Both the position numbers and the translations under genes were made by a program. A stretch of DNA of 64,000 bases from positions 711,388 through 775,387 of the forward strand of contig RPFO01000231.1 of assembly GCA_009746045.1 (NCBI GenBank). The letters are read 5' to 3'. The first letter of the stretch is position 1; each line of letters opens with the position of its first letter. The DNA is from Mesostigma viride (taxonomy: Eukaryota > Streptophyta > Mesostigmatophyceae > Mesostigmatales > Mesostigmataceae). Under the pieces are notes generated by a model, which was given only the letters and a program-made list of their open reading frames with translations, did not search any database and was not told where the DNA came from. This document shows positions 195 to 63,027 of this stretch, piece by piece.

Positions 195-268
195 CACATC
201 ATTGCCCCGCTTTGCATGCATGCTGCGTACCTCGATTCCCACTCGGCTGCCCCTTGATCACTCTCTAA
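195..268 (+). repeat. Diverged copy of the 5' edge of the next exon
   Basis: This stretch aligns with 293-365, which is the 3' splice site and first coding bases of the exon starting at 319. Both carry cattgcc or tattgcc, then gcatgcatgc, then a coding-like run (gcgtacctcgattcc against gcatacctcaagtcc). The offset is about 98 bp. The copy has lost the AG and has small indels, so it is probably not spliced. The rest of 1-318 is pyrimidine-rich intron-like sequence with loose ctcaactattct-type repeats. Confidence 0.6.
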
Positions 269-318
269 CTTTTCCGTAATCGTGTGCCCACACTATTGCC
301 GGCAATGCATGCATGCAG

Positions 319-2693
319 GCCGCATACCTCAAGTCCCGCACGGCCCTCTTCGACATCCTGCCCAGCCTCACGAGTGCAATCTACTGCCTCTGGAATGTTC
401 TCGAGCCCCAGCTGGGGGCGAGCGGGAACGCCGCCTGCAGGGACAAGGTCGGCAGCGCCCTCAAGCGGCTGCGCACAAACCCGCTCCACTACGGATATTA
501 TGGCGCGTTCTTTGGGCTGGGCGGGGCGGGGCGGTCATCAGAGGACGGGGGGGAGGACAGGGGGGAGGAAGGAGGGGGAGGCGCCGAGGAGGGGGATGGC
601 AAGGCGCCGGCACAGTGGACGGCCGCACAGCTGCCCCCTGGGGTGTTATCGCGGGTTTCTAATCAGATGGAGACGAGCTTGCGGGCGGTGGAGGAGGCGA
701 TGGAAAGCGTGACGGAGGCGCCTAAGGTTGGTTCCTGGTCTTCACTGGTCATTACACATCACTGTGTCAGTTGAATCCGTTGGTACTTGAATACTCCGTC
801 CCTCTCTGACTATTTATTTACTTGAATACTCCGTCCCTCTCTGACTATTTATTTACTTGAATACTCCGCCCCTCTCTGACTATTTATTTACTTGAATACT
901 CCGTCCCTCTCTGACTATTTATTTACTTGAATACTCCGTCCCTCTCTGACTATTTATTTACTTGAATACTCCGTCCCTCTCTGACTATTTATTTACTTGA
1001 ATACTCCGTCCCTCTCTGACTATTTATTTACTTGAATACTCCGTCCCTCTCTGACTATTTATTTACTTGAATACTCCGTCCCTCTCTGACCAAGCTGATT
1101 TCACGCGCTTCCAAGCATGCCGGGGACGCCCAAGTTTGAATTACTAGTTGATTACGTAGCGTGGTTACTTTTTTTGCCGTCAACTATTTTGTTTGCTAGT
1201 AGATAATACTTGTGGTGTTTGAAAATGTGCCAGTGGAAGGTACGGTGGGCCGGCGCTGGGTTTTTCGCTGACCGGTTTTTAACTACGCGGTTTGTGTCTT
1301 ACATCTTACATAATGAACCGTGGATGCGGGGCAGATCTACCATCCCGCTCAATGCTCGCGCGGGGCGTTATCAATCCCACCTTGTCGTGGCTTGTGTCGG
1401 ACATAATCCCGTGCTGGACACTCGTACCATCCCGCTAGGTAGTCCGGCTTGTGACAAGCATTGGTAACCACGTCCTCTTGCACCTGGTATTACGCATGAT
1501 AACCTGCTGGGTACTCGCATCATGTCGCGGCTTTTGTTGGACATGGCTGCGTGTCATACAGCACTGCCATCCATCACAGTACCGCGGCTTGTGATGGGCA
1601 CTACCAACCGCACCTTGTTGCGCCGTGCATCAGACACTCACATGAACTTACCTGCATCATGACCTGTGTTGGACGTATAATTACCAGTATTTAGTTCAGC
1701 AACTAATGAATGGCCTGTGTGGGGCTGGATTACCCGCATCCTACTGGTGTGCGCCAGGTGTCCACGGAGAGCCTCAAGGGCTTCATCTCGCTGGTGTCCG
1801 CGATCCAGCAGGGCTACTCCACCTGGCTGTTGGAGACCAAGTGCCACCTGTCCCAGCGGTTTGAGGACGTGACGGACGCCTGCTTGGACGTGTGCAAGTG
1901 CCTGCAGTGGCTCGATCGCCGGATGCATGTAAGGCATATCTTCTCTACTGCAGTTAAGAATCCACTAACTAGTACTAGTGTAACGCATATCTTCTCTACT
2001 GCAGTTAAGAATCCACTAACTAGTACTAGTGTAACGCATATCTTCTCTACTGCAGTTAAGAATCCACTAACTAGTACTAGTGTAAAGCGGAAAACGATTG
2101 CAAGTTCCTGCACTGGCTCGTCCGCTTGCTGCACAAAATTGGGGAAATGTGCTTGTTTCTGTACAATCAAGCACGTGGGAGGGTGGGGCCTTGAGAATGT
2201 CACACTCACTACAGCCATTGTTGCGCTCGCGCTTCTTCGGTTCCCCTAAACCCATAACCCCCAAACCTAAACCCCCATCGTCGTAAGCGATGTCCACGTA
2301 TCCAGTGAATGGACAAGTGATGCTCACATGTCTATTAATTAGTTGATTAGTTAATCCACCCTAATAATTAATGTATACAGTGAATGGACAGCATAAGGCA
2401 TGTTGGCTGCATGTCGCAGTAGCGCTTGCTTGCTTGCCTAAAGATAGGCTTGATTCCGTCAACTCGGGGCCTCACGTTGTGACTAACACCGCTCCCCCTC
2501 ACCGGCTGTACACTCGTGGTTATTCTTGGCCCCACAGGAGCTGGACCCAAAGCTCAAGGGCATCACCATGCTGTACACACGGTCCATGCGCGAGGTGCAC
2601 CTGCGAAGGCACCAGCTGTTGAAGGCCGCGGTTGACCCGGTCCACAAGGTCTGCCTCGAACAGCCATTGACACCCATCGGGGTGCGCCCTTGA
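319..2693 (+). CDS. Unrecognised helical protein, 3' part (three exons)
   Basis: Exons are 319-726, 1758-1928 and 2538-2693, all phase 0, giving 227 codons and a TGA at 2691-2693. Acceptors are gcatgcag, gtgcgccag and ccccacag; donors are AAG/GTTGGT and CAT/GTAAGG. The first exon starts at an acceptor, so the 5' end lies outside the window. Exon 1 opens with AAYLKSRTALFDILPSL, followed by an acidic Gly/Glu-rich insert and an amphipathic helix. Exons 2 and 3 are almost wholly helical and Leu/Lys/Arg-rich (VSTESLKGFISLVSAIQ; LYTRSMREVHLRRHQLLKA), like a helical-bundle scaffold. I do not recognise the family. Exon 3 could instead splice at 2648 (AAG/GTCTGC), but reading on to the nearby stop is simpler. 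The calls rest on phase agreement, splice signals and the sharp contrast with the repeat-filled introns. Confidence 0.6.
785..1090 (+). repeat. 35-bp minisatellite, about 8.7 copies
   Basis: The unit cttgaatactccgtccctct plus ctgactatttattta repeats almost without change (one T to C). It lies in the first intron, about 58 bp after the donor at 727. The rest of this intron (1091-1757) holds only loosely periodic sequence with recurring gttggacat and ccatcccgct motifs. Confidence 0.95.
1929..2082 (+). repeat. 51-bp tandem repeat starting at a 5' splice site
   Basis: Three near-identical 51-bp units begin at 1929, 1980 and 2031. The first base of the first unit is the G of the GT donor that ends the exon at 1928. 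Units start GTAAGG or GTAACG, so each carries a donor-like site, and each also holds cttctctactgcag, a good acceptor-like string. The unit is a multiple of three and stays open in the exon frame. Confidence 0.95.
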
Positions 2694-4321
2694 GGAACGA
2701 GCCAACAGTGCTCTTGTTGGTATATATAACTGGCTGGCATTGGCTGAGCTTGCCAAGAGCTAGTGTCCATTGTCATGGACGTATATTACTTGCCCAGATT
2801 GAGAAGTCTCGCATCATGCATTTTTGGCACTTTGTCCCTAGTGCCTGTTTTGTGCTTGGACTCCTTTGCAAGGGTACCCTTCTACCCCAATACTATGGGG
2901 TCTGTAAAATACCAGGGTGCAGGTCTGAGAAAAAAAATGGTACCAGCATTTTTTTTTCTCAAACAGGCTGCGGCCTTTTTTTTGACATTTTCAGCAGAGA
3001 GTGCTGTAATTTATTCATGGGTTGCCCTGTTGTGTTTTTGGCTGGTGCAGCCAAGCCAGAAAGAGGAGGTTGATCAACCCATACACACTCCTGGGGAAAG
3101 CCCAATGAAGCTAACCCGTACACGCTCCTGGGGAAAGCCCAGTGAAGCTAATTTCGACTAGCGAGTTTTGTGTGATGATATGCGTATCATCAAAATGTTC
3201 ATGGCTCTTGAAGGTCTAGCAACGGCATTAAATTAAATTAAATTATAACACAACTCCGTTGGGAGATCATTAATTAATTAAACTCATCGCGATACAACGC
3301 CGTGGAATCAATAGGAGGGGGGACATCCAGTCAAAACAGCACACTCACTCGTGTGTCCGGCACGGCACCTCCGGACGTGGAGCGGACTCCAAAAACGGGA
3401 AAAAATGTGTCCGGCGGCAGAATTTTTGCGACGGAGTGTACTCCAGTCGAAATTTTTAGGTCGGCGCGAAGAAAAATTTTGTGGAGCTAACTCCTCCCGC
3501 CGGCCGGTCCGGCGCCTGAAAGGAGTGCGCTCTGGTGATCCCGCTAGCTAGCTCGGTCAGGCGTTTGATTTTAAGCGCAGGAGTCCGCTTTGGCCCTGCT
3601 GTACTTACAAGTTACGCTGAGAACTTACCAAGGACTGGTTGATTCTAGGAAGACGTATCAACTTTCAGGCAGGCGTCAGGTTGTTGTTGTTGATTCTGAC
3701 ACCGGACCTGGCGTCAGGCAATAGGCATCGAATTTCCGCCGGCTTGACGTCATTCTTGAGTCGCAGACCACCGTTGCACCGGCCAACAACCAGCCTGAAG
3801 CCGGAGCACTGCAGTACAAAATCATTAATATTCTTCTACTTGGAGAATATGCTAATACTATCGCTTACTAAGAGCTTCTACTAAGAGATTCTACAAAAAG
3901 TGCCACGTGTCGTACAAGCCACGTAGCACGTAGCAAACTCCCAAGTCGATCCGGCGCAGCCTTTTGGCTGACAGAGTGCACTCAGCCATTTTTCACTTTG
4001 GCTGGCGCCGGGCGGCGCGGTAGGCCAAACTCTGGAGTACGCTCCTGTACGATTTTAGGGGGGGATGTCCCCCCTCCTGAATCAATCAATTACTTAATTA
4101 ATCTAGTTGCTGGTTACAGGGTTGCGGGCGCCGCGGCTCGGATCGCTATGGTTGCAAACGTGATCATGCGCGGTGCCCACACTGACTTGGGGTTGGTATC
4201 CTTCACAACTACCTGCCACATATCTTTACACACCATCTGTTGTTTGTCTGTTATATGGAGGCAAAGGACTCGTTTTCTACACTACTAGGGGCCTGCACCA
4301 TGATGCAGGAGGGGGGGGGGG
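2694..4321. other. Intergenic, no gene seen
   Basis: Low-GC sequence downstream of the first gene. At 3226-3290 there is an inverted copy of the retroelement 3' end seen at 25050-25110 (ctccgttgggagatcat beside an attaa-type tail). A second short copy is at 6015-6055. Short open frames here look like chance. Confidence 0.6.
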
Positions 4322-4866
<545 letters not shown>

Positions 4867-6910
4867 TCACATGTGGCCTGCCAACTTAATCATTGATTAT
4901 TAACGGGTTAATGCCAACCAAGTATCTTCAGTGTGAAAAACAATCCTGGACACATTGACTGGATTGAGGGAAGGTAATGTATCGTGTCGGACTGACGTAT
5001 GTACACACTGAGCTATGCAATACATAATGACCCTGGAAAACAGTGCTGAAGTATGATGATGTCTACGTCGTTCTACAATCTACTTCTTTGGTTACCATTT
5101 GATGTTTACTGACCAAGCGGCTAGCTCAACTGGAGATAAGTGGGCGCCCATGCAGATGCTTATGAGAATATCCCATGCAACCCAGAATGTAGAAAAGACA
5201 GTGCTACCGCCTCCGCCCCCCTCTGCTCGACTTTTTTGAACTAGCCGATCCACCTGCTGGCGTCTGCAAGGAACAGTGAAGGGTGATGGTGGGTGGAGGT
5301 TCTATATAGACCACTTGTTAGAAGGTATGGTAGTAATAAGGATAGAAATACATGGTATTCCATGTACTGCTACGCTCACCCTGCAGGGATACATGGCCAT
5401 TTACGGTGCAAAATTGCTGAGGCAGCCAACCAAAAGGACTCATCGGATTGGCCAGAAAGGACATGGTGTTTATTGCTGCCCTTATGGCACCAAACAGGGA
5501 CAGGCCACCCAGTCGGTGAATTTGCCCCCAGCAACTGTCGCTCAACCGTGGCTGTAATGTCAGCACCACGGAGCGCAGCTTGAAAAATAGCCTGAGTGTG
5601 CCAGACAGCGTTGAAAATGGCTCAGGAGGCGCCCAGCGACGCAGTCAAGTGCCCACGTGCGAGAGGCAATGCACCCCGTGACTTGTCTCTTCTGCCAACC
5701 CCGGCTAAAGTTCCGAACCCAGCTCGCCCAAAACCCACCCCAGCTCTCCCTAACAAGCCAGACGCGTGACCTTGTTTCCTGAGCCTGGCGGACAGATCCT
5801 CGGGCTCCCAATAGTTCCATGTCGCACATGGTCACTGTAACCATGGTGCGCATGGTCACTGTCGCCATAAGGCACAGGAGAACACGAGCGGACCTGCCAC
5901 CGGAACTTTTCCCAGCCCCGACAACGTCAGGTCAGCCCACAGAAGAGCCTGTGCATCTCTAGCAAGCCGTTGGAGCAACTCAAGTCCACCACATCCCCAT
6001 ATATATCCCCATTAGAAACATAACTCCGTTGGGAGTATCTGTAGCACATATCCCTGAGAAGGGGCATATGGCCTATAATACATTCTAAGCTACTTCCTGC
6101 AAGGGTGGGAATGTAAACGACATCCCCATATAGCTGTGATAGTCACTCTCGGAATGATGATGATACAAACCTGGTACCAGCACGACCTCATACAAACTAG
6201 AGCTGTCAAGTTGAGCTCATACCTCTGTACAAACTAGAGCTGTAAAGTTGAGCGCATACCGCTGTGAAGTCAAGCGTAGTCCTCGTGGCCTCCGCCACAG
6301 TACGAAGCAGACAAATAAATAAGATTGATGCGATGCCAAATCCACCGCCACTACTAACAAACTGCCTTCATGGGCACCAAAAGCCGCCAGCCCAATAGCT
6401 TGTAACTGCCATGTATCTCACGGGCCTTCCCCTTCCCCGCGAAATGAATCAGCTTATGTACACCCTTGGCGATCCCACGGCAACACACTACGGCTTCGCA
6501 AGGCAACCGCCCAAGCGTTGTAGTGACCAGTATAGTGACCAATGGGTCGAGTACAGTATACTACGGCTTCGCAAGGCAACTTCTTTATGTTGCATCACCC
6601 GGCCCGACTTGCCTGAGGGGTTGCAGCACCGCCAAAGCCAAACAAATTGGTGGCAACTGACGGCGTCGATGTCCCTGAAACACCGGCCAGGCGCGCATCC
6701 ACCATGGATTTCATGCCACCCAACGGTGAACCACATCCACATCCACAGCCACAGCCACAGATGGCAGGCAGACAGATACGGATGGGTTAGATTGCGTGTG
6801 CACAGGGATATCTCTCCTGACCTGCCCACTAGCCCAACTGTGGCTAGCGATTTACCACCCGCTTGGCCCCTCCTCCCACCCCCATACCCCCTCACAGGCC
6901 CAGCATCCTC
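4867..6910. other. Intergenic or NUP58 3' region, no gene seen
   Basis: No open frame here looks coding. cactacggcttcgcaaggca occurs twice near 6484 and 6560 in slightly different forms. A retroelement 3' end fragment lies at 6015-6055 (aacataactccgttgggag). If the NUP58 gene continues past exon 7, its last exon could lie here, but I could not find it. Confidence 0.4.
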
Positions 6911-7088
6911 ACATGCCCCCATGCCCCCATGCCCCCATGCCCCCATGCCCCCATGCCCCCATGCCCCCATGCCCCCATGCCCCCATGCCCCCATGCCCCC
7001 ATGCCCCCATGCCCCCATGCCCCCATGCCCCCATGCCCCCATGCCCCCATGCCCCCATGCCCCCATGCCCCCATGCCCCCATGCCCCC
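6911..7088 (+). repeat. 8-bp repeat (atgccccc), about 22 copies
   Basis: A near-perfect array of atgccccc, followed to 7160 by decayed variants (ccccaccccatg). It reads as Pro-His-Ala on one strand and Gly-Met-Gly on the other only because of the repeat. Confidence 0.97.
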
Positions 7089-7459
7089 ACCCCACCCCAT
7101 GCCCCCACCCCACCCCATGCCTCCATGCCACCCCATGCCCCCATGCCACTCCATGCCCCTTTTCCTTACCTGCCTGCCTGCCGGGCTCTCCCCTGCCCTC
7201 TCCCGTTCCCCGTTCTTCCTGACCCCTCTCTCCCCCCCCTGTTCCCCTCTGGCCCCCCATGTTCCCCCGACGCCGTGTGTACGCATGCGTCAGTGCGACG
7301 GCGACGCTACCAGGCGACAGCCAGCGCATTGGCTTACAATCCAGTATAAGGATGGCCATATACCAGGATGTTGTGGCGTGTTACTTGTACTACTACGTGG
7401 CGTCCTACATTCATGCATGCAAAGAAGCGTCCTATTGTTTGATACGCATACCCTACATC

Positions 7460-7510
7460 TATTGAGGGATTCTCCAGATTTCTGGCTTGCGCTGGATGTC
7501 TCATTGATCA
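7460..7510 (+). repeat. Dispersed repeat core (SINE- or MITE-like)
   Basis: gattctccagatttctggct followed by tgcgctgg and a tgtctcattga tail. Related copies are at 22365-22412, 26985-27030, 33005-33095 (inverted), 56400-56460 (inverted) and 58545-58660. Several carry a flanking ggtcactatagta or actatagtgacc motif. Confidence 0.7.
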
Positions 7511-8046
7511 GGGGCGCTAGAAACACAGCAAGTGCTACCGAGAGTGCTACGTTCATGTACTCCGCCACGCCTTCACTAAAGACACAATGAAGACTCCAGA
7601 AAGACGTTGGCACAAAAAGTTATAACACAGCCGTGCAGTACGATAGCATCATCATGTCTCGTCGTGGTTGCAACCCCCAAGCCGCCGAGGCCGCACGATA
7701 ACCCCATACAATAATAAAAGGACGCACGCCACCGCCAGCCACCTTAATTAAACACGTCCCAGCACGGGAAGTCGAGGCCCCCGAGGGGTCAACAGCCACA
7801 TGTTGGCCAAGCACAGGTAGCACAGGTGCGACGCGGTGTACTGGCGGTAAATTGGACGAGGTAAATGGGCGAGGTGAACTGGGCGAGGTAAACTACCCAG
7901 CGATGAAAAGCTACCAAACAAAAAGGAGAATTCTCGATCCCAGTACTGTCATGGAGAGGCAGGACATTCTGCCTGGTGGAACCGCAGGAAAGTGCAGCTG
8001 GACGCCGGATATTTGGAATCATGACCGTGGTGGGACTTGGGGGTAG

Positions 8047-8092
8047 ATACCGAAACCTAAACCCTAAACCCTAAACCCTAAACCCTAAACCG
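8047..8092 (+). repeat. Interstitial telomere-type repeat (CCCTAAA)n
   Basis: Four to five tandem CCCTAAA units, with one CCTAAA at the left edge. This is the plant-type TTTAGGG telomere repeat. It is internal, about 50 bp beyond the last assigned NUP58 stop. A decayed relative (ccctaaacccataaccccca) lies near 2247. Confidence 0.9.
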
Positions 8093-8140
8093 GTACTCCA
8101 CAGCGGGATACCTGGGTCCGTGCCGATGAGGCAAACCCAA

Positions 8141-11100
8141 CTAAATAACTGCACGTGTATAGAAACCAGCACGCGCACCGAGCGGTGACCACCGGGTCAT
8201 GGTGCAACAAGGAGAGCCACGCACTAACGGGGGGTGGGTGGAAAAATGGCCATTAGCGACGGGTTGCGACACGAAATGCCACGCACCAAATGCGGGGGTT
8301 GGCGTCGCCGCGCCACCAAACAGGCTGGGCGATGCGGGTGTGGCGGAACCAAAGGCCGACGAGGAGCCTGCGGGGGCCAAGCGGGGAAGATGGGGGGCAG
8401 ACAGGCCAGCGGATGGGGGGCAGATGGGCCAGTGGGGTGGGGGTCAGACAGGCCAGCGGGTGGGGGGCAGACAGGCCAGCGGGTGGGGGGCAGACGGGCC
8501 AGCGGGGCTGGAGAGGGCCCCATGTTTTCCACACCAGCAGGTAGGAGGTAGATCAATAGCAATCAGAGCGTTACCCTGGAGACGATGCTAGGCGAAGACA
8601 GTGAAACCGCCAATCAATAACAGATGGGCCCAAGCGAAACTGCGCAAGGATGCTACTGTAGCGATCGAATGAAGATGAAAGTCCACAGCACGAGAACCTT
8701 GCATGGCCATCTGATCATGCAGTACATGGCTGGTAGAAAATCCCGATATGGCTAGGTGTAGAAAGTCCCGATATGGACGCATATCGAGTGGTTACGGGGC
8801 TTGACAAGGTTTTGAGCCTCGGGCAGGGTCAGTAAGCCTATATAGAAAAACAGAGGTAACCGCAAGAATCACATGATGCTCTCAGGTAGTCACCATGACA
8901 GTCACGCATGCTGTCTCTTTTAGTTCTCTTTATTCCCACGAGATAGACCCGTAAACCCACACAGCAGCATTGTCGTAGTAATTCCGGAACAGGGGCATTG
9001 TCATAGTACTTCAGTGTTAGGTATGACTATGGGTTCAGCGATTAGTACAGGTATGAGTAAATGCATGGGCGTGGGCATGGGCGTGGCGTCCGCGTGGACA
9101 TGGCTTGCAAGAGAATACATTATTAAGGATGATCGAATAGATACAGAGGGACATTCTCACAGGCTTGTCAGAGGGTTGGGGCCGCCTTACCAAATGCTGG
9201 GACATTAACATCGAATAGTCATTAAAAGGAGTATTCAATGAGATACAGAGGGACAACGTCATAGGCATGCGGGCTGGGGGCAGACTTACCAAATGCTGGG
9301 ACGGACGAGCCAGGGAACACGGGCGTGGATGGTGTGGCCGCGCCTGCACCGGTAAACACCAGTTAAAAAAAAAAAAGAGTATTACTTAAGTGGGAAAGTA
9401 AGTGCACAGGTGCACGCTGGGATGGTGTGGCCACGCCGGGGCCGGTAAACACAGAACAAGGCTACGTTACTCAATACAAAGCTGAAGCTCAGTGCGAAGG
9501 GAAATGCACAGGAAGGGAAATGGGCAAGCCGGCGAGTGAAGAGCCAAGCAGGGATGGCATCGTCGTGCCTGCACCGGGGATGTAAAATGATTACCCAGTT
9601 TAGTAAACAAGTCAGCCCGTGCACAGATAGAGACGCCAGCGGGGTAGGAGGCAAGCCAAGAAGCCGGGAGCGCGCCAGTGAACTCCACAGGTGGTTGTGA
9701 GAGGACAACTAGGTCTAATTGCTCGGGTACAGCAAGAAGAGCAGTAGGAAAGGAAGTTCAATAGGAAAGGTCAGTCAGCGCACAGGTGGATGGGGCGGGG
9801 TAAGGGTTGGGAGGGTGGGGGTGGGGCGGGAATCCCTCTCGTTTTGACTGGAAATGAGCCAAAAACAAAATTCATGCCACCAGACCCGCAACTAGCAGAG
9901 ACAAGTGCCGATCCCCCCCCCCAACCCAACCCAACCCAACCCAACCCACGTGGTCACGTGAGTCACGTGACGTGAGCAAAACTTTGGGAGTAACAAGCGC
10001 CCGCGCTCATGCACTGACGCAAACCACAAAAACACACACTGGTTTCCACTGGATGCAAGCCATATAAACAGCAAACGCAAACCACAAAAACACACACTGG
10101 TTTCCTCTGGTTGCAAGCCATATAAACAGCAAACGCAAACCACAAAAACACGAAAGTCGTTGGAAACCAACCAATTGGAAGCACACGGGGGCATTGATAC
10201 TTTGCAAACAAACGCAGTGCACAACAGACCGCCACGCATCTCTCAAAGACACCCTTGAGCGGGTCCAAACAGGTGGAACGCCAACCCCCAACCCATACAT
10301 AGATACCAGTAGATAAATAACCCAACGTACCCATACATATATAGATACCAGTAGATAAATAACCCAACGTACCCATACATAGATAGATACCAGTAGATAA
10401 ATAACCCAACGTACCCATACATAGATAGATACCAGTAGATGAATAACCCAACGTACCAAATGCCGGAGTGGTGGATGATCCAAAGAGGCTTGGTGTGGAC
10501 GCTGGCGCGGACGCAGCGCCCACTGAGGCCATGGGAAAGGAACGGGAAAACGGCAGGGAAAAAGAACGTGGAAATATTGTCATGATTCTTTATTGAAAAT
10601 GGAAAGAAGGGGAAGAGCGGGCCAACCCACGGTGGCCATGGGAAGGAACCGGAGCAAGGCAGGGGACAAGGAACCAAGGGATAGGGAAACAACAACAAGG
10701 AAAAGAAAATAGGGGAAACAACAGCCAAAACAACAACCAAAAAGTGAGTCATCACGTACTTCCCCCCCCCTCCCCCACCCCCCCAAAGCTACTTGTCCCT
10801 CTTATGGATCGCACATTTGCTACAACACCTGCGGCTTCAACACTTGCATTCCCCGCCCCCCCCCTCCCCCCTGACTAAGGGGGGTTGACTTGCAGAGCCG
10901 TAGCACTTGTCCCTGTTACTCACCGCCCATGTACATCACGGTCCCAGTCAACTGCGGCCTCATCACTCCCATCATGGCCCATACCGCCCAACGCTACGCT
11001 ACCTTCCTCATCACACGCCTCCCTTGAATAGCCCACACAACCTGTGGTTCCATCCCCCCCCAGCCCCCCTCCCCCCCAAAAGAAAATGCTAAAATCTCCC

Positions 11101-14100
11101 TAAGCGTTCATCACTCACATCCCCCAAACAACGACCCGCCGCCCGCCGGCGCACTCCCAAAGAGCGGCGCGCTCGTCGCCGCGCCAAACAACGACGAACC
11201 CGTCGCCCCTGCCCCCGATGCCGCCCCCGATGCCGCCCCTCCCAGCGAGAATCCGCCCATCGACCCCGTGGCCCCCGTCGTGCTGGCGCCGCCACCAAAC
11301 AACGAGCTCCCCGACCCCGCCCCAAAGAGCGAGCCCCCTGTCGTGGCCCCCCCGAATAGGGATGGGGTGGGTGCGGCCGCACTGGTCGTGCTCCCGAACA
11401 GGGACGTGTTGGGCGCAGGCGTCGACGCCGCCGTCCCAAACAACGACGGCGTCGAACTGCTCGAAGTTGTTGATAAACCAAACCCAGGGTTGGCCCCCGG
11501 CATCCCTGGGGTGGCCAAGCCCCCCAGCTTGACCACGTGGCTGGTCACTGAGGCACCGGAGGTGGCGGATGCCAGCTCGGATTGCGCGGCCTCGCGACGG
11601 TCGGCCTCGGCGAAGGGGTCCCTGGTGTCCCCCTGGACGCGGCGAGCGGCCAGGAACCGGTCCTGCAGGCGTGTGACCGCCGAGTGAACCGCCTCCACCT
11701 GAGGAGAGGGAAAAGGGGGAGAAGGGGGGAGAGGGGGGGGAGGGGAAGGGGGGGAAGCGAGGGGGAAAAGGGGGACAGTGGGGGGAAGAGGGGGGAGAGG
11801 GGGGAGAGGGGGAAGAGGGGGAAGAGGGGGAAGAGGGGGGAAGAGGGGGAAGAGGGGGAGGGGGGAAGAGGGGGAAGAGGGGGGAGAGGGGGGAGAGGGG
11901 GGAGAGGGGGGGAGAGGGGGGAGAGGGGGGAGAGGGGGGAGAGGGGGGAGAGGGGGCGAGAGGGGGGAGAGGGGGGAGAAGGGGGAGAGGGGGGGAGAGG
12001 GGGGAAGAGGGGGAAAAAAGGGGAAGACGGGGGCCAGGCACAACGATGAATGATGTAGTCATATTAGTCGCAGAGTGAACCGCCTCCACCTGGAAAAAAG
12101 TGGGGAGGCAGTAGGGGGGGCGGACAGAGGTGTGACAGTGTACCACTCATGTGACAGTGTACCGATGAGTGACAGAGGTGTGACAGTGTACTGATGCCCT
12201 GAGATGTGACATCGGTGGATCCATCCCCTGTCTAGAGAGTGAGGACTAATAAACCGCCGGGGTGAAAAGGAATGGACCGCCAAAGTGAAGCGTAATGGAC
12301 CGCCAAAGTGAAGCGTAATGGACCGCCGGAGTGGACAGGAATGGACCGCCAAAGTGAAGCGTAATGGACCGCCGGAGTGGACAGGAATGGACCGCCAAAG
12401 TGAAGCGTAATGGACCGCCAAAGTGAGGACTAATGGACCGCCAAAGTGAAGCGTAATGGACCGCCGGAGTGGACAGGAATGGACTGCCAAAGTGAAGCGT
12501 AATGGATCGCCAAAGTGAAAAGGAATGGACCGCCAAAGTGAAGCGTAATGGACCGCCAAAGTGAAGCGTAATGGACCGCCAAAGTGAAAAGGAATGGACC
12601 GCCAAAGTGAAGCGTAATGGACCGCCGGAGGGAAGCGTAATGACCGCCCCCACCGGAGAGAGACCGGGGGAGCCCAGCATAGGAGGACTAAGGCGGCGTG
12701 GGGGTAGTGCCGGTGTAACTTGGACGTGGCGTACACCGCATTTCCAACGCGGTGCTACCATGGGCAGTGGCCAGAACTGTGTGCCATGTAGCAGCACATG
12801 GGGCAGCCTCAAGTGCCAGTGTGAGCGGGTCCTCTACCTCATCATGCTGTGTTTGCGCCTGTGTAGCAGCGAAGGGGGCGCCCTTCGTCTTTTCCTGGAC
12901 AAAGGGAGTGGGGTGGGGTTGGGGGTGGGGAGTGGCTAATACCATCCTGCATATGCATACTTTAATCAAGGAGGGGCTGGTATAGGTATAGCCCGTGACG
13001 ATGCCTTCATCCATCCTCCACACGCCGCAGAAGTGTACGGTCCTAGGGGGGAGCCCCCCGAAACCGAGAAATTGAGGGGACACGATGGCAAACAATCCGC
13101 CCCGAACACACTAAATTGCACGCGAAAATGCACCGCACCTCCCTTTGCTTCGGTGGTACGTATTAATGTAGACCAGAACAGCATTTTCACAATACAAGGC
13201 TAGCTCCGGGAAAGAGGTGGGAAGCGAGGAGGAAAGGAGATATGGGAGGAAAGCAGGGCGGGGACCAGCGAAATACCCAGCGGAAAGCGGGGCAGTAAAC
13301 GGAGGGAGGGAAAGGGTAAATGGAGCGAAATGGGGTGGTAAACAAAGGGAAGGAAAGGGGGAAAGAGGCGGGGACATGAACAAGGAAATGAAGAAAGGGC
13401 CTCACCCGTGCCGCTACATGCAGGAAGTAGTCGTACACGTTGCTGAAGATCTCCGGCAACACCTCCGCCATCGCCATCGGACCACCGCCACCCCGCCCAC
13501 TCCCGCCGTACACGTTCCCTCCCCCCCTCCCCCGCCCCCGGTCGCCCCCCTCGCCCGCCCCCCCCGCCAGGGACGCCCCCATCAGTGCCTCCAGCTCCTC
13601 CACGCACTTCCTCGTCTGCCTGAGCCGGTCGGTCAGCTCGGCGACCGTCCTCGTGAGCACCGGGGACGGGAGCACCGGGGGCCCTGCCAGATAATCCCGG
13701 GGGATCATCGTCCCTGCGGTAGCTCCGGCAGCACCCCCCGATGATGCTGGCGTCTGCGCCCCCGGCAGACCTGGGCTGGGCAAGTGGAACTGGGTGGGGG
13801 TGGCACTGGAGGTGGTCGATGAGCTTGCGAGGCCGGCATTGGGGACGTGGAACCGCTGGCACACGCGCGCAAATGTGAAGACGGTCGACTCGGTGTCTCG
13901 GAGGAGCGCGATGACGTCGCGGCGGAGGGACTTGACGGATTCGAGCTCGGTGCCCAGCAGGTTGCTCAGGCCTTGCACTTTCTGGGGTGGGGGGTGGGGG
14001 GTGGGGGGAAGGGTGGCGAGTCAGAGGGGGCATGCATGTTATGTGCGTGTGGTTGTGCGTTAGTCCATGTGTGTAAAAGTGGAAAGCCCTTCCACTCCTG

Positions 14101-17620: not shown

Positions 17621-20600
17621 ATGATGGAGTTCGGTCTAAGTAGCGTTGACTGGTTTAGCGTTTACAAGGAATACGGCCCTGGTTTGGCTGGCGCGGTTTT
17701 CGGTGCGGGCTGGTGGTTCTGGGTGGACGCCTGTGTCCTTAGTGCGATGGCGGGAACCAAGGTTCCATTCGTGCATTTCCTCCCTGGCATCGTTGCCGTG
17801 ATTGCGATCATCATGATCAATCTCGTGGACAAACGGGATCTAAACGAAAATTCGGTGTATGACGAAGGCGCGGGTTGCAGGTAAGGAACGGCATCGGTGA
17901 ACGTTGCTCATGATGATCAAGCGCTAAATGTAGGAATCTCGTCGAATTTTCAACGCTGCCGATGCTGGTTGAGTTGCTAGACAAACAAACGACACGTATT
18001 AAGGGTTTGGTAATGAGGACCTTCGCCAGCGGTGGAGTATTCTTGACCTTTTGCCATCCTTCGTTTCCCTACTTGCGTGCTGCGCTTCGTATTTACGATT
18101 ACTATAAGCACGCTGCAGTATATGCGCAACACATATACGGAATATATGCGCTCAATTCTTGGTTTTCCTCTCCTGACCTTCCAGGTAGCGGCGGGTAGAA
18201 TAATTTGGGGTTGGCCTCCTGTGGCATGGAACCCGGTCACCTTCCTATCGCAGTGTCCCGGTACAGTGTCCTGCTGTTGTATACCTGCTGCTGATGACGG
18301 GTCAGCTCTCTATGGCGTAGAACCTCTTTTAGCATATGGCATCAGCTGCAGTGTGGCATCTCTTTATTGCATCAGCACCTGAAGTGCATCAGCATCTGCA
18401 GTGCATTAGCGCCTGCAGTGGCATCACCTGCATCGCTTCTCCCCGGGCTTTTGATAGTTCAATTTGGGGCCCGATAGTCCAATTTGTCACAATCCAGACG
18501 CTCATACCTTACTCTATTTCCCGCCCCCTGGCTCACCTGCACACGCCTCCGTCGTAATGACATTCTATTACACTCAATTACATTTTATTCTTCCGCCCGC
18601 CACGTGCCCTGCTCGCGTCTGCTGCCATTCATTTCCTGCGTCACGTACATGTACCTTTGTACACCGTAAGTTCATCTTTGTATCCTACATGCTAGCCCTA
18701 TTATAGTATTCTAAGTATCCTACATGCTAGCCCTATTATAGTATTCTAAGTATCCTACATGCTAGCCCTTTCCACCCAAGTCTCTGCGCCAGGTCGCACC
18801 CACACTTTGATGATGAACCCTGTTACACAACCCTGGCAGAACCACCAGGGTGCTGGTGATTGCTGTACACTCCTTTTTTTCCTTCTCGCCCATCTCGTCC
18901 TGTTGGTGGTGTGCCTCCTCCCGCCAGCACACAACCTGGTTGGTTTTCCTACATAACTCATTTTTGTACACTGTAATCTCGCCCTGATGGTGACGTGCCT
19001 CCTACTCCTTGTACCGCATGCTTCCTCAATCCTCCCTGTACTGTCCCTGGGTGAAGCCCGTGTTGCCTTTCATCCTACCCCACACCCACTTGCAGTGTGG
19101 TATACTGCACTGCTGGTTACCACACATGACGCGTCTGTACTCCATGTCTAGTTTCCTTGGATTTGTTTTCATTATCCAGAAAGTTTACAACGCCTCTGTT
19201 GTCCCTGTCTTTTCGTTTGCCCGCCGATGGCCTCCCTCTTCCAGTCATCAGGTCACGCACCGCCCTATTTCTTCTTCTTTTTCAACATGTCATACATTTC
19301 TAATAATAAAATAATAATAATAATAATAATGATGATAATGATAATGATAGTAATAATACTAGTAATTAGTCCCCCATGTGGCCTTGGCCCCCTCTTGTCT
19401 CCTCGCAACATTTCGGTTCCCCTTCCTCTCCTACCTCGTCTTTGTTGATGCTGACCAACCGGGCTGTGCCCGCTTGCGCAGGACCATTTCTGGCACCCCC
19501 TTCCTTGCCCTCGCGCCAGGTGTCGCGCTTTCTATCGCACGTCGTCTCATTGGGTGGCCAATATTAGTATACAATAATATACATTAATATGACCATATTG
19601 CTATAGTGCAGTAATAATAATAATAGTAATAATAATACTCACCACACTAGTAACAGTACTGCAGTGACGAAACGATAATATTTACTGATATTCTAATGCC
19701 CCCCCTTCACACACATACACCAACTTGTGCTCTTGCCAGCCCGCGCGCCTCCCTCTCCCTCTCCTGCCTCAGCCCTGCTGCTCATCCATCATGCCACATC
19801 TTCCATCTCTACTCAACTTTATTCCTGTCGCCTTGCCAGTCTAATGTCTTCACGTCCCATGCATCCCTCTTCCTCTCCTACCTCAGCCCATTTGGTGCGC
19901 TGATAATGATCTTAGACTTCATAATTATATTAAGACTATATAATTAGATTTATAAGATAGTATGGTGCACTCATAATTGTAATTATAAACCCTCCTTCAC
20001 TCACGCACGCACACGCATGCTTGTCCGTCCTATTTCCAGGCCACACGCGTTCCACTTCCTCTCCTGCCTCATCGCATTGGGTGCCCCACTGAAACTTGTC
20101 GTACCCCCCCTGCTTGTATACGCCCGCTCGTCCCATGGCCAGGTCGCGCACCTTCCTCTTCCTCTCCTACCTGATCTCCTTTGGCGCGCTGGGCGGCGCA
20201 ACCTGGGTGCTGGTCGCAGGCTACGCGTCCAAGGCAGGGGTGGACACCTGGCCGGGCGTCGCCAGCATCATCCAGTGCATACTCATCATCACCAGGTGGG
20301 GGCTGCAGCCCATGCGGTGCTTGTAATACTTGAAACGTGTCATGGTCTTTGAGAGCATTCATCGTCACCAGGTGGGGGCCGCAGCAGATCTTGTTCGCCC
20401 CCCCCCCCTTCCCAGGTGCTGCCAGCACTGTACCCAGGGGGCATACTTCTCCTCAGCAGGTGGAGGCCGCAGTGCGCGCGCGTGATGGTCATGAAGAGTG
20501 TTACCATGTCATGATCCTTTACGGCAGGCATCATCTCCAGGTGGGGGACCTGAGCTGATTCAAGTCCGGACAGCAGCATCTCATGCTTCCGCTGTCTCCC

Positions 20601-21103
20601 CTTCTCGGCTTCACAAGTCCTACCCCTGCGCTTCACCTTTCTTTTTATCCCCGTGGCAAATATCAGCTCGGCGTGTCGCACTGAACGTCATTCCATGTAT
20701 GCTCTGCATTTCTGATGTTGTTGCTTATCGATCGGATATGAACCAATTTTTTAAACTAGGAAAACAGATTGTTTGAGTCTACCACATCTACCACTCCACC
20801 AAAAACGAGTTGGATTCACATGGGGTGCTCTCGTCCCTTCCCTCCCTTCCGCAACGGTATCGTCTATTGGACATGTTGCATATCTTTTTATAAGAATATC
20901 CATGAAAGTCATTGCCTGCACCCGACCTCAATCCGTTGCTCTCCACCGGCAGGATCTGCTACACATGTCACGTACGTCATCATGTGGGTTCTGCCCTTTG
21001 CTGATGTTGTGGCCCGCCCGTGGCCTCCGTCTCCCCACCCTGGCTGCCCGTCTGCAGCGGCATCATCTACTGGACCTCTCGCCAGCTGGAAGCGTTCATC
21101 TAG
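17621..21103 (+). CDS. TMEM50/UPF0220 (Vps68-like) four-helix membrane protein
   Basis: Exons are 17621-17880, 20143-20295 and 21058-21103; both introns are phase 2, and the joined frame is 152 aa plus TAG, close to the roughly 155-aa family length. Start is MMEF; the frame is open further upstream, but the family begins about 20 residues before the first helix. Helices: about 21-41 (AVFGAGWWFWVDAC), 51-69 (VHFLPGIVAVIAIIMI), 91-114 (FLFLSYLISFGALGG) and 125-143 (VASIIQCILIITSGIIYW). GAGWWFWVDA, HFLPG, YDEG, WPGVA and SGIIYWTS resemble land-plant members as I recall them. Relatives sit in endosomal/ER membranes; yeast Vps68 has been linked to ESCRT-dependent sorting, but the molecular role is unsettled. 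Both introns contain decayed copies of the flanking exon edges. Confidence 0.93.
18681..18771 (+). repeat. 35-bp tandem repeat, 2.6 copies
   Basis: tatcctacatgctagcccta plus ttatagtattctaag repeats at 18681, 18716 and 18751 inside the first TMEM50 intron. Confidence 0.93.
19230..20100 (+). repeat. Series of decayed echoes of TMEM50 exon 2
   Basis: At least five stretches resemble the start of exon 2 (ccaggtcgcgcaccttcctc then ttcctctcctacct). The best are 19838-19903 (ccctcttcctctcctacctc, then tttggtgcgctg) and 20031-20090 (ccacttcctctcctgcctca, then ttgggtgcc). Weaker ones are near 19240-19285, 19405-19450, 19508-19560 and 19733-19775. Reading frames are broken. They lie at irregular steps of about 100-200 bp upstream of the real exon at 20143, and the closest copies are the best preserved. 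Confidence 0.75.
20287..20550 (+). repeat. Four serial copies of TMEM50 exon 2 donor
   Basis: The exon end and donor catcaccag/gtgggggc (GT at 20296) recur as cgtcaccag/gtgggggc (20372), ctcagcag/gtggaggc (20460) and catctccag/gtgggggac (20541). Steps are 76, 88 and 81 bp. Three of the four are followed by an imperfect gcag. All keep a usable GT. Confidence 0.85.
20846..20882 (+). repeat. Decayed echo of TMEM50 last exon
   Basis: gcaacggtatcgtctattgg at 20851 matches gcagcggcatcatctactgg at 21054; over 29 bp I count 22 matches. Most differences are silent or conservative, so the copy still reads NGIVYWTC against SGIIYWTS. The acceptor AG has become AA. Offset is 203 bp. Confidence 0.75.
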
Positions 21104-22088: not shown

Positions 22089-22089
22089 T

Positions 22090-22420
22090 TCCATTTGCGG
22101 GTATTTCCTCATAAATGGTGGGAGAGCGATCGCAGCAATGGTGCTGACCACTAGACAATCGCGGCCAGTTAGGCTCGAGACACGCGCCCGGCCCACATGA
22201 TCAACCAAGCTGTTTCCAGCCCCACCGTCTAGGTCATGTAGTACGTCGCTCTACACGTAAGCCAGCCATCGTTTCAATGCACAAGGCTATGCATTTCCAT
22301 CTCCATTCATATTCATCATCCTGCACGACTCGAAAACGCGGAAAAGATAACGGCAGGCTCGAGCTACCATGGTCCGGATTCTCCCGATTTCAGGCCTGCG
22401 CTGGTTGTTTACTTGGTAAA
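22090..22420 (-). repeat. Retroelement-associated block, copy 1
   Basis: About 320 bp, closely similar to 26714-27030 (tttgcgggtatttcctc, agcgatcgcagcaatggtgc, gtaagccagccat, then aaaacgcggaaaagataacg). At the second site the block abuts an inverted ATTTA-type tail, so it appears to be the 3' part of an element on the minus strand. Confidence 0.8.
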
Positions 22421-22601
22421 ACACCTGATGAGAACATCATCATTTGCATGAGGCAATGCGATTCTTTACTGAATGCAAGCTCATAAGTGAATAGATATAG
22501 GTTCGCAAGGAGCCCGTCTGCAACTGGATCCGGCCTGCTTGCCGACGCGCCGCCGATTCCTGAGTGGCATGCAGCACAGCTACCATATTATGCTGTACAA
22601 A

Positions 22602-23935
22602 TTAACAATGGTTCCCCTGACGACCCCGCCAACTACCGAGGAGTCTGCATCCAGCTAGAGCGCCACACTCAAGTTGTTCATGCGCATGATCCTCAACCGC
22701 CTTCGTTCTGCACTCGACCGTCACCTTAGAGGGGAAAGTCAAATAGGCTTTCATCCTGGGTGCAACACCGTCATGGCCATCTTCGTCGCGCGTCGCCTCT
22801 TCGAGGAAATCGCTCTCCTGCAACCTGGTGAGTTTCCCGCCATCCTGATCTTCATCGACTTCATCAAGGCTTTTGATTCTGTCCTCTGGGACGCTCTATG
22901 GGCTGTCCTTGCTCGCGCTCGCGTCCCCACTCCCCTGATTACTGTCATCCGCACGCTGTATGAGGGGTCGACCACTTCGGTGCGCACTCAACACGGCTTT
23001 ACCCCGCCATGTCCACTGCAGACCGGCGTCTGGCAGGGTTGCGTCCTGTTGCCGTACCTGTTTATTATTGTAGTGGATTATGTTATGCGCCAGGCACGTG
23101 CTCGCTTTGCTAGCATTGCAGGCCGTGCCCCTGCATGGCCCAGAGATCACGAACGAGCTTGGGGAAGGGGGCCGACTAACAAGCAGAATTTACTAGCTGA
23201 CCTCATTTACGCCGACGACATCACGCTCATCGAGATGCCGGAGTCTGCCCAACTTTGGCTGGACTGCCTGGCGCTCGAGGCTCGGGCGGTTGGTCTAGAA
23301 ATCAGCCCCATGCAAAACGGAGGCCCTGGCCCTCGGCATGGCAGGGCCCCCACCCACACAGTCCGCCTCTTAGACGACACCAAGTCAACTACCCTACTTC
23401 AGGCCGCTTCAAGCTGTTCGGCAGTTAGAGTTCCCGGCTGCGAGAACGACCTGACGACACGGATCCGGGCATGGCGTGGGCGCAACTCCATGACCACCGC
23501 CGCTGGTGGAGCAACCCCGCCCTACCCCGGATCGTCAAGCGTGACCTCTTCAAGGTCGTCATTCTGACGATCCTGACCTATGGCGCCGTGACCTGGACAC
23601 TGACGCAGGAGCTGAAGCAAAGACTCGACGGCAACGTCACCAAGATGCTGTGCAAGGCCCTTAACATCCCCTTTGGTTTGCACATTAGTAATGCGGATTT
23701 GTACGCTGATTTGCCGTATGTTTCCCACATTATTAGACACAGGCGCCTGGGCCTAGCCGGGCACCTGGCTCGCACAGATCAGGTAGACACATCAGATAGA
23801 TCGACTAGCTGGCACCAAGCCCGCCCAGCCTGGGCGATATGTCCGGCCTCACCTGGCGTGCCCCAGGCCGTGCGCGGCAGGGCCGCCACCCGTGGACTTT
23901 TTGTGATAGACTCGGCATAGACATGCACGTGCTAC
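22602..23935 (+). pseudogene. Non-LTR retrotransposon reverse transcriptase, broken
   Basis: One frame (22674-23300) carries RT motifs in order: GFHPGCNTVMAIFVARRLFEE-type block 2, FIDFIKAFDSVLWDALW (motif A aspartate), TGVWQGCVLLPYLF (motif B QG) and LADLIYADDITLIE (motif C YADD, near 23208-23219). The frame then shifts between about 23300 and 23480. The C-terminal part resumes at 23471 (DLFKVVILTILTYGAVTWTL, then GHLARTDQVDT) to a stop near 23920. The same order is seen intact in the minus-strand copy at 27180-27836. The 5' end (endonuclease part) is missing. It is a dead 5'-truncated LINE-like copy. Confidence 0.85.
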
Positions 23936-24214
23936 CCTAGACGTGACGGGCTCACACCCTGGCAGCCTCCTGGCCGGTTTGTCTGTAATCTGTCGAGGCA
24001 GATGGTACGCAAGGATAGATGGCAAGTAGTGATGAAGGAGACCACCCCGGGCAAGTCTGTGGGGGCTCCGCGTGTGACCGCGTACGTATGGCATTCATAG
24101 CGATTCGGGCCGTGGTGCCCACAACCCTGTAACTAGGACCTAGATAGCTTACACAATCCATTCCATCCCATGTTCCCCTCCCACTGAGGACTTATGCTCA
24201 CGTGACGCAGTCAC

Positions 24215-24270
24215 GTGCATGTCAATTAATTAATTAATTAATTAATTAATTATTTAATTAGTTAATTAAG
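24215..24270 (+). repeat. (TTAA)-rich AT tract
   Basis: A run of attaatta/ttaattaa about 50 bp long, between two retroelement fragments; probably an old element tail or an insertion target. Confidence 0.7.
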
Positions 24271-24409
24271 GAGCCCGGCACAGTTAGTGCCCATAGGGAT
24301 GCCAATAACTTGTTGGTATACGTCGCCCGCATTACAAATGAAGGTGTAATCAACAAGATAAGAGATCCAATGAACAAGGTCAGCCTTCGTGATGTCAGAT
24401 CAAATGATA

Positions 24410-25112
24410 AGGCATAAGAAAATATATGTCCTCGTCCTCACGGTGCTCACGTATGGCGCCGAGGCGTGGACACTCACACCCACACTGGCAGCTAAGCTCG
24501 ACGGCACGGTTTACAGGATGCTCCGACAGGTCCTGAACGTAGGGTTCTCCAAGCGCCCGTCATTAGAGTCTTTGTATCAGGGTATGCCTCGTATTTCGGA
24601 CGAGATTAGGCAGCGTAGGATAGCATTTGTAGGACACCTTGCTCGCACCAGCCAGGTCGACACCGCCCTTGGTCTGGCAGGCCCCCAGCGGCTTGGCCAG
24701 GCTGCCAGGGCGGCATATTCTGACCTGGCCTGGCCCCAAGGGCATTCCCCAAAGGGTAGGGAAACATGTCACGAACTAGTAACGTCCAGATGTTGCTGGA
24801 CAACCTAGTGGTCCCAGCCCAGTTTCAATACCGCATCCACTCTCTCTCCCTTCTTTGGACTGCCATGCAGAACAAGACGCGGTGGCAGAAGATTGTCAAG
24901 GCTCACACGCCCGACCCTGTGGGCAAGCCACCTCCCCCCAAGAGGAGGAGGCGTTTTGATGAGCAGTGTAGTTAGGATTTTTCTAGACTAGATAGATTAG
25001 CGTTAGGTTAATCCGATTACGCGGCTCTCTCCACTCCACCACCCATCAAGGAATATGTGCTACATGATCTCCCAACGGAGGCATGTTATAATTTAATTTA
25101 ATTTTAATTCAT
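24410..25112 (+). pseudogene. LINE-like 3' end copy with tail
   Basis: Starts abruptly in the RT C-terminal region (VLVLTVLTYGAEAWTLTPTL), continues through RISDEIRQRR and FVGHLARTSQVDTALG, then shifts frame near 24770 and ends with a basic tail (KPPPPKRRRRFDEQ) and a TAG near 24975. After it comes an untranslated 3' end, ggaatatgtgctacatgatc then tcccaacggaggcatgtt, closing in an ATTTA-type tail. The same 3' terminus, inverted, occurs at 3226-3290, 6015-6055 and 27023-27070, so the family is multi-copy. Confidence 0.85.
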
Positions 25113-25119
25113 TTAATTT

Positions 25120-25880: not shown

Positions 25881-25904
25881 GACGGGCTCGCACTGCATGA
25901 CCAC

Positions 25905-26690: not shown

Positions 26691-27035
26691 AATTAAATTA
26701 AATCAAATTATAACATTTGCGGGTATTTCCTCGTAAATGGTGGGAGAGCGATCGCAGCAATGGTGCTCACCACTAGACACTCCCGGCCAGTTAGGCTAGA
26801 AACACACGCCCTGATCAAGCATGCTGTTTCCGGCCCCACCGTCTAGGTCATCTAGTCGCTCCACACGTAAGCCAGCCATAATTTCAATGCACAAGGATAC
26901 ACATTTCCATCACCATTCATCTTCATCATCCTGAACGACTCGAAAACGCGGAAAAGATAACGGCAGGCTCGAGCTACCATGGTCCGGATTCTCCCGATTT
27001 CTGGCCTGCGCTGGTTGTCTCTTTGATAACATGCC
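26690..27035 (-). repeat. Retroelement-associated block, copy 2, with tail
   Basis: Same block as 22090-22420. Here it abuts aaattaaattaaatcaaatt at 26690-26710, an inverted ATTTA-type tail, so the element's 3' end points left. Confidence 0.8.
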
Positions 27036-27860
27036 TCCGTTGGGAGATCATGTAGCACATATTCCTTGATAGGCCAGGTCAGAATGTGCCGCCCTGGCTG
27101 GCCAAGCCGCTGGGGGCCTGCCAGACCAAGGGCGGTGTCGACCTGGCTGGTGCGAGCAAGGTGTCCTACAAATGCTATCCTACGTACGCTGTCTAATCTC
27201 GTCTGAAATACGAGGCATGCCCTGATACAAAGACTTTAAAGACCTATGCGTGGAAAACCCTACATTCAAGGCCTGACGGAGCATCCTGGTTACCGTGCCG
27301 TTGAGCCTGGCTGCCAGTGTGGGTGTGAGTGTCCACGCCTCGGCGCCATACGTGAGCACCGTGAGGACGAGGACCTTGAAGAGCATGCGCTTGCGGTGCT
27401 CGCCCAGGCCCTTGGAGCGCCAGTAGGTGTTGAGCGAACGTAGCCTAGCCCAGGCCAGGCCGATGCGGGTGTCCACATCGTCGGTGGTGTCAGGGAGCCC
27501 GCTCCCTAACAGTTTGAAGCGATCTCGGAACAGGACCGTCGTCAAGTCGAGCAGGCGCGGCAGCGGCGGTGTACTGGAGGCCCCAATCACCATCGCCTCA
27601 GTTTTGACACTAATCTCCAACCCCACCGCCCGCGCCTCCAGGCCCAGACAGTCCAGCCAGGTCTGAATGTGCTCGGGGCTCGCGATGAGGGTGGTGTCAT
27701 CCGCATAAATCAGGTCGGCCAGGCAGTAGCCAGGTTTAACCCCGCCGCGCGCGCTCTCGTTAAGGATGTCCAAGCCTGGCTCGAACCCCTTAAGAGCAGT
27801 AAAGCGCGCACATGCCCGACGCATGACGTGATCCACGACAATAATGAACAGGTATGGCCA
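27023..27860 (-). pseudogene. LINE-like RT C-terminal copy, least decayed
   Basis: An uninterrupted 218-codon frame (27836-27180) covers MDHVMRRACARF, LADLIYADDTTLI (YADD near 27700), EARAVGLEISVKTEAMVIGA (motif D-like lysine), LTVLTYGAEAWTL and LYQGMPRISDEIRQR. Beyond 27180 the frame shifts, and the element reaches its 3' end at 27023-27070, inverted relative to 25050-25100. It is 5'-truncated before motif B. The most recent insertion of this family here, judged by its open frame. Confidence 0.85.
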
Positions 27861-28291
27861 TGGGGACAGGACACAACCGGATGCGAACCTGGATCTTTAT
27901 ATATAACTCTCCTGATCCCAATCTATGGCCGGCCAACTGCCAAAAAACTAGCACTGGTCAATATTGCGGAAATTGCGCTGGATATTCTATATGCGAGCTA
28001 ATGGTGCATAGGAGTACTACACCAGTGGACATCCCCCGTCCGTGAGATGCAAGATCCGCCTCCCTGACCGGGCCTGACGTACGGGACTTCCGCCGGCAAC
28101 ACCGCCGATCATCTTAAGTACTACCAATGCACAACCATTCCAAGCACAGATATCGCTGGACGTATACCTCTTATTAAATCTAAGCATGCCTCTTTCCAAA
28201 TCCAACTCCAAGCTCGAAGCCATTTTTTCACCGACTTGTCCAGTAAGTTGAATACCCGGCGTGCCCCATAGTGTCCATCTTCCCAGTAAAA

Positions 28292-31203: not shown

Positions 31204-63027
<31,824 letters not shown>

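Follow-up and report, generated by a model that had tools for sequence, protein, structure and literature searches.

The window, that is the whole 64,000-nucleotide stretch of Mesostigma viride DNA analysed here, is eukaryotic; its GT-AG introns are long and tandem arrays are numerous. Frame-preserving gene models comprise 28 introns, of 219-2768 bases (median 914), and 56 junctions in this one window. The genes are the following.

319-2648, plus strand: first gene (unnamed), three exons inside this interval
16405 to 8287, minus strand: NUP58, seven exons in frame
17621-17880, 20143-20295 and 21058-21103, plus strand: TMEM50, three exons
63027 to 31204, minus strand: rotatin, rebuilt as 19 exons with 4285 codons and a sole, terminal stop

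The remaining two frames of the joined rotatin exons contain 94 and 119 stops. We take the gene to be rotatin from the name given in the initial annotation and from the C-terminal region of the protein; an NCBIfam search with the rotatin pieces gave no match. A search of PDB sequences matched NUP58 with the solved NUP58 chain 9sob_I (E = 7e-31), and Pfam assigned TMEM50 to UPF0220. No Pfam family scored above the curated cut-off with the pieces of NUP58, rotatin or the first gene, and an Rfam search of the window gave no match at the gathering threshold.

A single rotatin exon, 52182-44767, spans 7416 bases, is GC-rich and is far longer than the remaining exons. Arrays within rotatin exon stretches at 46932-46983, 49673-49720 and 55835-55878 have periods of 21, 24 and 12, respectively, all multiples of three, the pattern to be expected if exonic duplications that break the frame are eliminated. 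Three NUP58 exons in succession, N6-N8 (10522-8287), have the identical end CATTTG before GT, which suggests duplicated FG-repeat exons and means that echo counts there could be affected. An interstitial telomere-like array (CCTAAAC x5) lies at 8056-8091. Inspection by eye revealed a dispersed repeat of ~50 bases (CTACCATGGTCCGGA plus GGCCTG..CTGG) in at least five copies and both orientations, at 22360-22408, 26968-27018, 33043-33090, 56412-56460 and 58545-58592, three of them inside rotatin introns. Open frames with a YADD motif lie between TMEM50 and rotatin (22659-23920, 24374-24808 and ~27160-27880); they resemble what we take to be non-LTR reverse transcriptase, apparently in several decayed copies.

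The initial annotation had reported that exon edges are echoed in the adjoining introns of all four genes, an echo being a diverged copy of an exon edge with its splice site. In a rank test, the 40 exonic bases at each junction, excluding the splice site, were compared with the nearest 500 bases of their own intron and with the same ends of the 27 others. In a first round, 18/50 junctions matched their own intron best, as did 19/56 (2 expected) once three NUP58 exons, in which echoes had already been seen, were added; the reported echoing in the four genes is thus upheld. Donors ranked first in 11/28 cases and acceptors in 8/28 (1 expected for each), distributed between rotatin (donors 8/18, acceptors 4/18), NUP58 (1/6 and 2/6), TMEM50 (1/2 and 2/2) and the first gene (1/2 and 0/2). 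Permutation of the exon-intron pairing gave z = 14.6. At a fixed score, local matches were found for 19/56 real edges, 10/130 exon-interior pseudo-junctions and 19/1512 mismatched edge-intron pairs. The own intron did not rank first at 37/56 junctions, and the gene-end edges at rotatin acceptor 63027, first-gene donor 2648 and NUP58 donor 8287 have no echo.

Control runs used a set of 25 introns and 30-base queries. Reverse-complement targets ranked first for 0/25 donors and 1/25 acceptors, and reversed, non-complemented targets for 3/25 and 1/25. The own intron's far 500 bases, searched in long introns with the 30 exonic bases next to the donor, ranked first in 0/10 cases, the intron across the same exon (the wrong side) in 0/21 and 0/21, and the own intron, when the query was shifted 40 bases into the exon, in 0/24 and 1/22. 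Chance, low complexity or likeness to the splice consensus could account for matches such as the G-rich, low-complexity ones at rotatin donor E, and for the 3/25 first ranks of reversed donor introns. As an explanation of the echoes it is nevertheless hardly credible, given that the splice site was kept out of the query, the 19/56 first ranks, the permutation z of 14.6 and the first rank of reverse-complement targets in only 0/25 donors and 1/25 acceptors. The echoed junctions are listed below, with offsets in bases.

32397..32894, minus strand: rotatin exon Q, donor 32863; copies at 117, 234 and 351, forming a contiguous 117-base array (98%), 32 exonic bases included, followed by two decayed copies, at 465 and 571
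37892..38164, minus strand: rotatin exon N, donor 38119; copies at 102 (including 46 exonic bases), 144, 186 and 228, and a further one at 1322
59871..60218, minus strand: rotatin exon C, donor 60183; copies at 104, 200 and 307, with GTAAG in all three
40940..41093, minus strand: rotatin exon K, donor 41075; single young copy at 96 (97% over 58 bases), with a 38-base gap of unrelated sequence between the copies
34110..34248, minus strand: rotatin exon P, donor 34226; copy at 109
55147..55306, minus strand: rotatin exon F, donor 55289; copy at 137
60660..60764, minus strand: rotatin exon B, donor 60751; weak copy at 86, GT lost
39490..39660, minus strand: rotatin exon M, donor 39615; copy with indels at ~116-119
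39703..40295, minus strand: rotatin exon M, acceptor 39725; copies at 124, 213 and 552, more partial ones by eye
55981..56114, minus strand: rotatin exon F, acceptor 56008; copy at 103, AG retained
60835..61410, minus strand: rotatin exon B, acceptor 60869; copies at 404 and 535, pyrimidine-rich array before the copies
31930..32070, minus strand: rotatin exon R, acceptor 31957; copy at 111, AG lost
58019..58190, minus strand: rotatin exon E, donor 58190; intron side only, 58185-58137 against 58066-58019, offset 119
11678..12092, minus strand: NUP58 N5, acceptor 11698; copy at 391, long array between
10519..10670, minus strand: NUP58 N6, acceptor 10522; intron-weighted copy at 107, outside the 19 first-ranked junctions
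9113..9302, minus strand: NUP58 N7, donor 9290; near-contiguous duplication of ~100 bases with a 94-base tract at 75%, offset 99
9327..9590, minus strand: NUP58 N7, acceptor 9343; copies at 93 and 225
19727..20191, plus strand: TMEM50 exon 2, acceptor 20143; copies at 103, 289 and 403 and, more distantly, at 736 and 1994
20277..20385, plus strand: TMEM50 exon 2, donor 20295; copy at 76
20850..21085, plus strand: TMEM50 exon 3, acceptor 21058; copy at 203
1893..2140, plus strand: first-gene exon G2, donor 1928; copy at 206, GT lost, array of 51-base units between
222..359, plus strand: first-gene exon G1, acceptor 319; borderline copy at 97

Ten rotatin echoes named in the initial annotation, at 60869, 60751, 60183, 56008, 55289, 41075, 39725, 39615, 34226 and 32863, all rank first, and those of TMEM50 exons 2 and 3 were confirmed. 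The echo claimed at rotatin 58190 was not recovered: its own intron is third of 25, the exon-side matches are of low complexity and the intron side alone is duplicated. The echoes ascribed to NUP58 exons 4-6, if these correspond to N5, N6 and N7, hold for N5 and N7, but N6 displays only the intron-weighted acceptor copy and a donor array. The copy claimed at the first-gene acceptor 319 exists at offset 97 with a score of 22, but this score is equalled in 1/28 control introns; the junction lies outside the set of 56 because its intron runs beyond the window. Clear echoes at donor 38119, acceptor 31957 and donor 1928 extend the earlier list. Two intronic minisatellites start at a donor, 1928-2085 (51-base units, G2) and 10294-10457 (42-base units, N6), as if array growth had been stopped by the exon.

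The copies share a characteristic geometry. The first copy lies at an offset of 76-137 bases at 15/19 junctions, with a median of 109, in hand-entered values that leave uncounted the nearer partial copies seen by eye (donor N ~42, acceptor M ~56); the clustering of offsets noted originally is therefore borne out. First offsets are larger at four junctions, three of which (G2, NUP58 N5 and rotatin B) have a tandem array before the copy. At the 15 junctions with offsets of 76-137, the duplicated unit would contain 55-115 intronic bases. The 34 tabulated copies extend 11-49 bases into the exon, with the query limited to 60, and 18-46 exonic bases are carried in a 25-copy set. Alignment falls within 4 bases of the junction in 19/20 donor copies (donor E excluded) and within 2 bases in 11/15 acceptor copies. 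Homology extends across the unit in two cases, Q (117 bases, 98%) and N7 (94 of ~100 bases, 75%); gapped alignment of the intron side gives significant homology in 8/18 donor and 1/13 acceptor copies. This weak intron-side homology fits faster loss where both copies change, although it could alternatively mean that little intron was copied. Donor echoes are found on short exons, of 171 bases or fewer in 10/11 cases with an echo against 4/17 without (p = 0.001, post hoc); such a link was looked for at acceptors and is absent there.

Exon-side identity is 0.79 between real edge and echo and 0.68 between echoes, with a background of 0.31, while the intron-side values are 0.40, 0.37 and 0.30, respectively. 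Independent decay would give ~0.64 between echoes, so that the observed 0.68 leaves little room for constraint. When each copy of a series is counted, changes run from GC to AT in 55 cases and in the reverse direction in 23, and CpG sites differ at 34/153 against 63/680 for other sites. Differences between exon and copy fall at third codon positions 45 times and at the others 29 and 23 times, an excess that we ascribe to probable change in the exon itself. GT is retained in 15/21 copies (neutral expectation 0.69) and AG in 7/15 (0.58), and the first copied donor, if used, would meet an in-frame stop in 9/11 cases. The copies look neutrally decayed, and their splice sites display no sign of selection. 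An alternative in which the copies are functional, as decoy sites or alternative exons under selection, would accommodate the GTAAG retained in all three donor C copies, the third-position excess and the echo-echo identity slightly above that of independent decay. It is improbable in view of the near-neutral retention of GT and AG, the stops met by the copied donors and the nature of the copies, each of them a fragment of an exon edge with a single splice site. The proposal that copies nearer the exon are better preserved describes series Q (in identity) and N (in tract length), but not C, M or TMEM50 exon 2.

The two flanking copies at exon K, separated by unrelated sequence, are what insertion of a transposon or introner at AG|GT would leave if the copies were long target-site duplications. 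Comparison of 16 spacers (120 comparisons) gave a mean score of 13.77 against 13.73 for shuffled sequences, and a highest score of 21 against 23; an origin by such elements was therefore rejected, as no shared element emerged. The 18-46 exonic bases carried in the 25-copy set also exceed the 3-9 bp duplications described for some introner families (PMC9860276), leaving this explanation very unlikely. Terminal inverted repeats, a further introner trait, were likewise not evident, as spacer self-complementarity reached p < 0.05 in 2/16 cases, uncorrected.

Duplication is not restricted to junctions. Direct local copies in the same intron were found for 20.3% of intron-interior 40-mers with arrays of period >30 left in, for 11.1% after array masking, and for 9.5% when echo windows were also removed; against distant targets, ~1% of intron 40-mers match. 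Under differing maskings, 16/50, 15/49 and 19/56 edges (31-34%) have a local copy, giving an observed edge:interior ratio of 1.6-3.2. Random intron pieces, which the initial annotation had named as the comparison that could refute it, are thus themselves partly positive, at 9.5-20% against 31-34% for edges. Interior duplications occur at a substantial rate with offsets of mostly 20-140 bases, and most multi-copy arrays lie away from junctions. Strong duplications across the whole window, with arrays masked, look nearly all junction-linked, but lower thresholds reveal interior ones. One interior duplication, at 56145-56290 and away from junctions, comprises 46 bases at 93%; its 54-base AT-rich spacer resembles an imperfect hairpin when inspected by eye.

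In a forward simulation with deletions and duplication sizes of our choosing, uniform placement yielded an edge:interior ratio of 1.3-1.6 from exon conservation alone, together with an exonic reach of more than 50 bases in 45-58% of copies, against 0/34 observed. General tandem duplication plus exon conservation alone was rejected because such long pieces are absent. Requiring at least 55 intronic bases, as a splicing constraint, improved the fit in length and offset, with 17-28% of copies having a reach of more than 50 and a median offset of 120-126, but lowered the edge:interior ratio to 0.4-0.5; capping exonic reach at 45 gave a ratio of 0.4-0.8. The splicing-constrained model yields too few echoes, and part of the junction excess is consequently unexplained by it. 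On this modelling, either the mutation process would favour duplications at junctions or the simulation would lack a protective effect near intron ends.

The narrow offset and the short exonic reach are the features in which junctions look special. First offsets lie within 93-119 at 11/19 junctions against 2/22 interior pairs (p = 0.002, both lists hand-made), and interior duplicate pairs have shorter offsets, with a median of 77 in a hand-deduplicated list. Together with an exonic reach of at most 49 bases in all 34 copies, and an edge:interior ratio of 1.6-3.2 where the neutral model with the splicing constraint gives 0.4-0.5, these values could point to breaks or nicks, associated with transcription or splicing, that gather near exon-intron borders and recopy the border in ~100-base steps. 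The substantial rate of interior duplication and the location of most multi-copy arrays away from junctions argue against this explanation, and its support comes from simulation settings that we chose and from 56 junctions in one window; we regard it as a minority possibility, though a real one. It is similarly doubtful that borders are duplication hot spots in this lineage, with fewer than 50 exonic bases copied per step and introns growing from their ends. If true, decayed former junctions would constitute a record that could be read and approximately dated. Of the border copying put forward in the initial annotation, direct local duplications straddling junctions in four genes stand, but a copying habit peculiar to junctions is not established. 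The further statement that introns were built by edge copying is overstated, since 37/56 junctions do not rank first.

The explanation that we favour, with a probability of roughly 0.6, is that introns lengthen through frequent small local duplications, and that those straddling a junction are tolerated, the exon-side site staying in use. Small local duplications would arise throughout introns and lengthen them. At a donor, the product would read exon, first site, ~55-115 bases of intron, a repeat of the exon's final 13-46 bases and second site; the acceptor product would be its mirror image. The splice site beside the intact exon would stay in use, leaving the protein as it was, while the second copy turns intronic and decays, and repeated events would generate series of copies. 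Copies of exon would be recognisable for longer than copies of intron because the exon stays conserved. The DNA event may be a tandem duplication produced when a break is repaired. The ~100-base step may mark the minimum size at which sufficient intron end remains for splicing, with larger duplications occurring less often.

What tolerates the duplication would be exon-centred choice of splice sites. In human minigenes whose two 5' sites are identical and lie 52 bases from each other, the exon-proximal site wins under exon definition, as reported in PMC9225289. By analogy, exon definition in genes with long introns would select the donor nearer the exon when two are equal; the original site would then win and the copy would be harmless. 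The occurrence of donor echoes mainly on short exons is as an exon-definition view would suggest. Several observations tell against the favoured explanation. The simulations leave part of the junction excess unaccounted for, intron-side homology reaches significance in a minority of copies, differences between exon and copy are enriched at third codon positions, and acceptors lack the short-exon link. In addition, the young copy of exon K, with its 38-base unrelated gap, does not fit a clean tandem origin, and exon interiors also match locally (10/130 pseudo-junctions against 19/1512 mismatched pairs).

Intron lengthening is poorly explained. Chlamydomonas and its relatives have conspicuously long introns of unknown advantage, for which an ancient length-driving mechanism has been supposed (account in PMC8226300). 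Duplication straddling a junction would be a simple route to longer introns without a mobile element, and it would leave a fossil record countable in any genome. Exon-centred splice-site choice predicts an accumulation of copies where introns are long and exons short, and their loss where introns are short.

Among the open-access matches listed, no description of junction copying into the same intron was found, and several known systems resemble the echoes in part. As in intronic minisatellites, arrays at Q (117 bases), G2 (51) and N6 (42) touch or include junctions; the difference is that most echoes are diverged partial copies rather than head-to-tail arrays, contiguous copies of high similarity being present at Q and roughly at N7. 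Duplication of a whole exon with both splice sites was not found among 34 copies with a reach of 11-49 bases, the query being limited to 60. Introners have been proposed as a cause of large-scale intron change and are common in aquatic organisms (PMC9860276). As portrayed in that account they differ from the echoes in making introns and in having sequence common to several loci; all-against-all comparison of the 16 spacers of this window, equal to shuffles, revealed no element common to several introns, and introners are accordingly not supported.

Rogers & Bendich 2025 (PMC11782384) describe direct repeats of 4-30 bp (mean 11.4) near intron splice sites. These share with the echoes their nature as direct repeats at intron borders; in the relevant part of that description, however, the 5' border is paired with the 3' border, whereas here the copy lies near the same border, inside the intron. 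A border-to-border repeat was found in 0/10 cases when a 30-base query was compared with the far 500 bases, a search for copies longer than the 4-15-base repeats of PMC11782384. Breaks with protruding ends give rise to tandem duplications, as observed after induced breaks in mouse stem cells (PMC5730883); these would yield the right kind of direct local copies, although the pertinent sections of that study make no link with splice junctions.

The closest parallel is intron gain by tandem genomic duplication, the established AGGT model reviewed in PMC3443670, which cites Gao & Lynch 2009 and Hellsten 2011 on this subject. As outlined in that review, the model likewise involves a short direct intragenic duplication over sequence resembling a splice site, the additional copy being concealed by splicing, and the echoes do represent direct local duplications containing splice-site sequence. 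In the reviewed model, an exon segment is duplicated and the new intron arises between the AGGT copies. No new intron lies between the copies described here, which sit inside longer introns and are omitted in frame by the joined exons. Here the duplication instead straddles the junction of an existing intron, and the outcome is a lengthened intron rather than a new one.
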